A stretch of 32,908 nucleotides of DNA from Tannerella sp. GTDB lineage: Bacteria; Bacteroidota; Bacteroidia; Bacteroidales; Tannerellaceae. The notes under the pieces were generated by a model, which did no database searches, was not told the origin of the DNA, and was given only the letters and a program-made list of their open reading frames with translations. The position numbers and the translations under genes are program-made. The first letter of the stretch is position 1, and each line of letters starts with the position of its first letter. The DNA is taken from contig JAISMO010000122.1 of assembly GCA_031276675.1 (NCBI GenBank), positions 1 to 32,908 of the forward strand, read 5' to 3'. Of the stretch, positions 23,618 to 24,043 are shown piece by piece.

Positions 23618-24043
23618 ACCGGTTTATCTTTTTACAGTTGAAACAAACTGATAAAAAACAAAACATCATAACAGATTCGCTTCTTCTCAAAAAAAGAAGC
23701 CGGAAAGTAGTTTTGAAAAGAAATTTTGTTATCGTGCGCGCGAGTTTGCGCGAGACTGTGTGTGTGTGTGTGTGTGTGTGTGTGTGTGTGTGTGTGTGTG
23801 TGTGTTTAAAAATATACATGAGAAATACAAGGAACAAGTGTTAAAAGTAAACGCTTCTTCCCTCTTCAAAGAACCCTGACGGTTTCTTGATAGCCTTCCG
23901 AATCTGTTTTCTGTTCTCATGATGGACATCCTTTTGTTTTCGACATCAAAAGTAATGATTTTATTTTAAAACCGAATTTTTCTTTCATTTTGTTTAGGGT
24001 AGCGGGTAAACAAATTGTCGTAGTTGTAAAAGGGAAGTAGAAA
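23618..24043. promoter_or_regulatory. Divergent sigma/fecR control region
   Basis: This 426-bp gap contains a 7-bp hairpin (GCTTCTT 23679-23685 with AAGAAGC 23694-23700), an alternating purine-pyrimidine stretch (CGTGCGCGCG, about 23733-23742), the (TG)24 tract, and an AT-rich stretch before fecR. No clear TAnnTTTG element was found for either gene. The frames crossing the TG tract (poly-Val-Cys or poly-His-Thr) are artefacts of the repeat. Confidence 0.5.
23757..23804. repeat. (TG)24 dinucleotide microsatellite
   Basis: Forty-eight bases of perfect, uninterrupted TG repeat sit 140 bp upstream of the sigma start and 240 bp upstream of fecR. Such long perfect dinucleotide tracts are rare in bacteria and are prone to slipped-strand length change. 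Alternating purine-pyrimidine DNA of this kind can also adopt Z-DNA. Confidence 0.97.

Follow-up and report, generated by a model that had tools for sequence, protein, structure and literature searches.

The TG/CA tract described here is probably the slippery core of a phase-variable leader cistron in front of an ECF sigma factor gene, similar to the pil1 system of Streptococcus gallolyticus. As read from the DNA, a leader ORF crosses the repeat, its frames diverge behind it, their ends are placed for coupling to the sigma gene, and the same arrangement recurs across the genus.

The window, that is the whole stretch of DNA analysed, is a 32.9-kb contig from a 2.9-Mb genome assembled in 189 contigs and 93.7% complete. 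The tract occupies positions 23757 to 23805 as 49 uninterrupted bases, (TG)24.5, one base longer than the perfect (TG)24 at 23757 to 23804 given in the preliminary description. It reads (CA)24.5 on the minus (coding) strand and is the sole perfect dinucleotide array among the 24 TRF rows for the window. The proposed target is the ECF sigma factor gene at 23081 to 23617 on the minus strand (Pfam Sigma70_r2, Sigma70_r4_2 and Sigma70_ECF). On the plus strand are a fecR-type anti-sigma gene (24044 to 25150; FecR and FecR_C), which does not lie behind the tract, a susC-type TonB-dependent receptor gene (25366 to 28722; Plug, STN and CarbopepD_reg_2) and a susD-type gene (28734 to 30425; SusD_RagB). 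Sigma, FecR, an STN-bearing SusC and SusD were found together by Pfam, as in an ECF sigma/FecR/SusCD regulatory unit, and the susC gene is presumed to be under the control of the sigma/FecR pair. The five closest named relatives of fecR (63–72% identity) are from Tannerella sp. or Tannerellaceae MAGs, which we take to be of termite-gut origin. The window also contains another simple repeat, a heptamer array (ACCACTA)8.9 at 1243 to 1304 (87% matches), as well as 12 copies of a unit of about 21 bp, TTTTTCCTTTGGGGAAAAACT, at 4570 to 4830, every unit being nearly palindromic, and about 10 copies of a 23- to 24-bp unit, TGGTGTGAGGTACACACCAAGCGC, at 13487 to 13714 (89% matches).

A small, unannotated ORF in front of the sigma gene and directed towards it starts at an ATG at 23929 and, in the present (closed) phase, extends over 23729 to 23929 on the minus strand as 66 codons including the repeat, which would encode Thr-His repeats. 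The Bacteroidota −7 box has the consensus TAnnTTTG, and a match to it, TACTTTTG (23947 to 23954, minus strand), is the candidate promoter of the leader. A −33 box was sought 19–21 nt from this −7 box and no good match turned up, which speaks against the leader model. The motif TTTTAAC-N9-TTG at 23828 to 23846 (minus strand) is common to other repeat-bearing leaders. In the post-repeat segment (23610 to 23756, minus strand), the three frames differ in stop position. The present-phase leader stop, where ribosomes would terminate, lies 25 nt past the repeat and 111 nt ahead of the sigma ATG. With one unit fewer or two more, the post-repeat TGA overlaps the sigma ATG by 8 nt (ATGGATGA), and with one unit more or two fewer, the leader stop falls 14 nt before the sigma ATG. 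A short ORF ahead of the target contains a non-triplet repeat unit, and slippage would bring the leader stop from a distant position close to the sigma start, both as expected of a pil1-type switch. Against the leader model, no terminator-like hairpin was found between the repeat and the sigma gene at the window locus, the place of the pil1-type intrinsic terminator.

We infer that the leader is transcribed, that the repeat slips in cells, that expression is affected and that the sigma factor controls susCD. A promoter near 23950 (minus strand) would start an mRNA leader, and ribosomes initiating at the ATG would read through the repeat. CA repeats contain no stop codon in any frame, and ribosomes should therefore always pass; the repeat number would set the frame in which they leave the tract. 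In the two phases other than the present one they would reach the sigma start, which should raise sigma output via translational coupling. Slippage would then cause heritable, reversible switching of sigma and perhaps of the neighbouring susCD genes.

The preliminary description had proposed that slippage alters the spacing upstream of both genes. A promoter-spacing or DNA-shape switch that tunes transcription of both sigma and fecR is considered unlikely. The tract does sit between two divergent genes, as does the TA repeat of Haemophilus influenzae hifA/hifB, which lies between divergent promoters and alters promoter spacing; TG repeats can moreover adopt non-B DNA, so that an effect through DNA shape could be envisaged. 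Unlike the hifA/hifB repeat, the tract is within a leader ORF and away from both predicted promoters. The sigma-side −7 box lies beyond it, the tract being about 140 bp downstream of that box, and the fecR promoter-like motif GTTTAGGGTA ... TTGTCGTAG (23992 to 24023, plus strand), predicted from its position and recurrence, is about 187 bp away, with the tract upstream. Similar strings were also seen upstream of the fecR homologues examined, and four homologues (L098, L099, L100 and L007) have no tract, although TTTAGGGT...TTGTC is still present ahead of their fecR genes. Spacing also leaves unexplained why, genus-wide, a gene follows on the leader strand behind an open frame. Placement of the tract in a control region common to sigma and fecR was not confirmed, fecR having its own promoter-like motif. 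A direct effect would be expected on sigma, by reading frame, and not on fecR. The idea of a phase-variation switch holds as a class, in that tract lengths differ between paralogues and orthologues with alike flanks, and a length change would reset the leader frame instead of the spacing.

The tract is not a chance run, since a search of 41 genomes of the genus gave 38 tracts with 10 or more TG units, of which the window's own genome contributes three. Thirty of these tracts start with T (in 17 of the 41 genomes) and eight with G (in 6 of the 41). AG10 tracts were present in 31 of the 41 genus genomes versus 15 of 118 order-wide genomes, the own genome being included in the 15. Leaders built in this way were also seen elsewhere in the genus, around CA, GA, GT and CT tracts and probably around poly-G as well. 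At least seven dinucleotide leaders were identified in the own genome (CA at C45, C91 and C149; GA at C80, C96 and C99; CT-sense at C169), and short ORFs there also precede poly-G tracts. Four such poly-G tracts (L139, L140, L142 and L146) are 11–13 bases long and lie 194–335 nt upstream of susC-type genes, and strong terminator-like hairpins follow three of the four.

Pfam searches of the nearest long ORF, which may not always be the true neighbour, identified a SusC-type receptor at 22 of 48 loci (21 with Plug), including one ORF at L037 that runs off the contig and of which only the N-terminal domains were recognised. The other neighbours among the 48 loci included six HU-type DNA-binding proteins, one ECF sigma factor (L167) and one two-component-regulator propeller protein (L078). 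The window adds a further ECF sigma neighbour beyond the 48 scanned loci.

For the box and motif scans, all tracts were placed in the CA or GA orientation. Within 250 nt upstream on the leader strand, 58 TAnnTTTG matches were found in 61 loci versus 10.7 expected; 41 of the 58 fall 101–180 nt before the tract, and an in-frame ATG follows the box, mostly 17–38 nt away. The motif TAA[CT]-N9-TTG or TGG was located 24–40 nt before the tract in 38 of 63 loci (1.2 expected), under a definition set after part of the data had been seen, and its absence from the other 25 counts against the leader model. Over a fixed 39-nt region, the motif-defined frame contained one stop in the 38 loci, compared with 40 and 23 in the other frames, and it was open in 37 of the 38 loci (other frames, 14 and 18). 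Nine of the 25 motif-less loci carry a second leader type with FG[MT][IV][FL][AV] before the repeat; at one of them, L157, stops occur further upstream in that frame.

Two promoter readings of these sequences were rejected. A promoter at the tract edge was discarded, as the motif sits in an open frame behind independent −7 boxes. A sigma-54 promoter, judged by the sigma-54 promoter consensus and considered for a subset, was discarded as well, the string translating as FG[MT][IV][FL][AV] just before the repeat at nine loci. Conservation of the leader peptide was likewise rejected. Over 16 pairs, leader substitutions at codon positions 1, 2 and 3 numbered 111, 128 and 118; as they do not favour third positions, it is openness and not the peptide that is kept, and this lack of protein conservation counts against the leader model. 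Leader stretches at L069, L075, L080 and L085 translate to RHCEARSNPE/RHCERSEAI-like strings, which resemble a widespread bacterial repeat. At L209, L214 and L249, the leader motif is present and the dinucleotide run is interrupted or missing at its usual place; these are perhaps locked switches.

Behind the repeat, at least one frame was open for at least 110 nt in 58 of 60 loci versus 26.4 expected (antisense, 31), and at least two in 23 of 60 versus 5.1 expected (antisense, 8), where the expectation comes from first-order Markov shuffles and the 60 loci include five that had earlier been set aside. Exactly two frames were open in 22 of the 60 loci and all three in one. The longest frame over 240 nt of post-repeat sequence averaged 207 nt in 50 loci, compared with 107 nt in shuffles and 105 nt in antisense. 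Some excess of openness, against the leader model, was also seen in repeat-less upstream regions of 22 susC genes (156 versus 120 nt), some of which lie inside upstream genes; this excess is smaller than that behind the repeats. A post-repeat stop fell within −20 to +25 nt of the next ATG in 19 of 46 callable loci versus 2.4 expected, the −20 to +25 window having been set after part of the data had been seen. Here and in the other counts, the first ATG of a gene served as its start, the expectation was obtained by shuffling the segments themselves, and loci of the same genome are not independent. Several of the 19 junctions are ATGA overlaps; against the leader model, 27 of the 46 loci have no frame ending near the called ATG. 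Phases were mixed across loci, 17 being open and 16 closed (n = 33).

Terminator-like hairpins of −10 kcal/mol or better, a cut chosen with part of the data in view, were found within 160 nt behind the repeat in 8 of 52 loci versus 0.5 expected (antisense, 3). In seven of the eight, at least one frame passes the U-run and another stops before the hairpin. Ribosomes that reach the next start could also shield the leader RNA from early termination; some sister loci have a terminator-like hairpin in this stretch. At L165, the frame after the AG repeat stays free of stops to the end of the locus and into SusC-like sequence, so that here the repeat may be part of the receptor gene itself.

The open post-repeat frames could instead mean that the repeat is part of a real small protein with switchable C-terminal ends, any effect on the next gene being secondary. 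Two or three open frames in 23 loci and some long extensions, such as 562 nt at L092, would agree with this. The leader shows no codon-position signal of peptide conservation, conservation of the post-repeat extensions was seen among close paralogues at most, and the open frames terminate at the start of the following gene in more loci than chance would give; we regard such a protein as improbable.

The repeat is preceded by a hairpin at many loci. A genus search for ATTAAC-N9-TTGGT combined with the fetched loci gave 63 distinct motifs, 57 of which have a dinucleotide run behind them, in nine cases of only 8–9 nt. The distance from motif to run is 18 nt in 48 of the 57 and 19 or 20 nt in the remaining nine. 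At hairpin arm positions outside the search pattern, 401 of 456 cells pair, against a mean of 352.5 and a highest value of 369 in 1000 permutations, and double changes number 48 (permutation mean 15.3, maximum 25), in a count that omits the central pairs fixed by the search pattern and includes several loci sharing a genome. Sliding the partner by −3 to +2 columns as a control gave 112–228 pairs of 456. Covariation was analysed and found in the ATTAAC-N9-TTGGT class alone; the window leader is of the related TTTAAC class. The lack of a codon signal fits a hairpin that covaries while the frame stays open, and the hairpin may serve in ribosome pausing, protein binding or promotion of slippage. 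RNA structure alone was rejected as an explanation: single-sequence folds of 12 pre-tract leaders gave inconsistent z-scores of +0.67 to −4.73, the window at −1.91 being moderately better than shuffles.

Hairpin and repeat together could also be a dispersed MITE- or REP-like element that has landed in leaders and has no switching role. Its copies are numerous, with 45 AG-tract matches in genome G049 alone, and in 48 of 57 loci the covarying hairpin keeps a constant distance of 18 nt from the repeat behind it, both points in favour of this reading. A passive element would not be expected to sit behind a −7 box and an ATG, to be directed to the gene, and to have frames ending at the next start. 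We give it the same low probability as the small protein, and the switching leader is retained as the preferred reading.

Tract length changes between copies. In genome G024, the tract of the orthologous sigma-fecR locus is in the corresponding position and measures (TG)18.5, compared with 24.5 units in the window, with flanks 73–75% identical. Paralogues L073 and L093 have 40.5 and 27 units (flanks 89% and 85% identical), and L069 and L085 have 11.5 and 20.5 units (flanks 89% and 83% identical). L054 has 11.5 units versus at least 29 in L082, which ends in the repeat, with a downstream flank matching at 112 of 116 positions. All lengths are those of consensus contigs, for which assembly may choose one length from a mixed population, and they describe differences between copies and not variation within a strain. 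A neutral microsatellite or an assembly artefact might be suspected, as the data are all consensus MAG contigs and several tracts lie at contig ends. The tract nevertheless recurs at the orthologous locus of another species and its gene architecture is non-random, making this the least probable of the explanations weighed here.

The closest known system is pil1 of S. gallolyticus, in which GCAGA repeats change leader length and thereby relieve a premature terminator (PMC3894217). The leaders described here share with pil1/pil3, as presented in the retrieved sections of that report, a repeat in a short ORF upstream of the target with a unit that is not a multiple of three, a frame and hence a leader stop that slippage would move relative to the target and, at some sister loci, a terminator-like hairpin in between. 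In contrast to the pil1/pil3 pentamer, the repeats here are dinucleotides and apparently poly-G, the loci number up to dozens per genome, and the targets include SusC receptors, ECF sigma factors and HU-like proteins. In many cases two frames extend as far as the start of the following gene and may overlap it. No terminator was found at the window locus, and the system described here is known from sequence alone. For Bacteroides, the retrieved text of the review "100+ years of phase variation" (PMC11868660) presents such switching as invertase-based DNA inversion, and a term search for leader peptide, attenuation and gallolyticus gave no match. The SusC/SusD phase variation of Bacteroides fragilis (Nakayama-Imaohji 2009, via PMC11868660) concerns the same target class and has the same heritable on/off logic; it is mediated by an invertase, whereas repeat slippage is proposed here. 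Short ORFs in long 5′ UTRs, "reminiscent of leader peptides", have been reported in Bacteroides thetaiotaomicron (PMC7366714), and are likewise leader-type ORFs in Bacteroidota mRNAs, although the retrieved part of that paper describes no repeats or switching. Among the matches listed from the open-licence literature, there was no report of repeat-bearing leaders in Bacteroidota.

For a wider reading, the case seems to us evenly balanced. CA, GA, GT, CT and poly-G leaders with a common hairpin-repeat module may form a genus-wide contingency system that independently switches SusC-type transporters, ECF sigma factors and HU-like regulators. Two of the three post-repeat frames would often be kept open to the next start by selection, so that two phases are ON and one is OFF. 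The hairpin may itself promote slippage or ribosome pausing, and related leaders with other motifs may occur sporadically in other Bacteroidales families. If true, slippage acting through leader translation would be a second route of phase variation besides DNA inversion, and uncultured gut species could combine the on and off states of their transporters and sigma factors in many ways. Counting the repeats modulo three in ordinary long reads would then reveal the state of such a switch. For annotation, an apparently intergenic repeat may sit in a small translated leader.

Outside the genus, the leader motif was found at none of the 21 loci fetched. A phenomenon confined to the genus was nonetheless rejected, since many outside loci have a short ORF before the repeat and post-repeat openness. 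A post-repeat frame was open for 110 nt in 13 of the 21 loci (6.6 expected), and ten neighbouring genes searched against Pfam gave one SusC-like and one ClpB-like match and eight without a match. Four loci from other Bacteroidales families (L181, L189, L190 and L194) have AG tracts after ORFs of 23–27 codons ending in ..PIPV or ..V, and in the last three a post-repeat frame ends at most 15 nt from the next gene's ATG. These four leaders are possibly an independent version.
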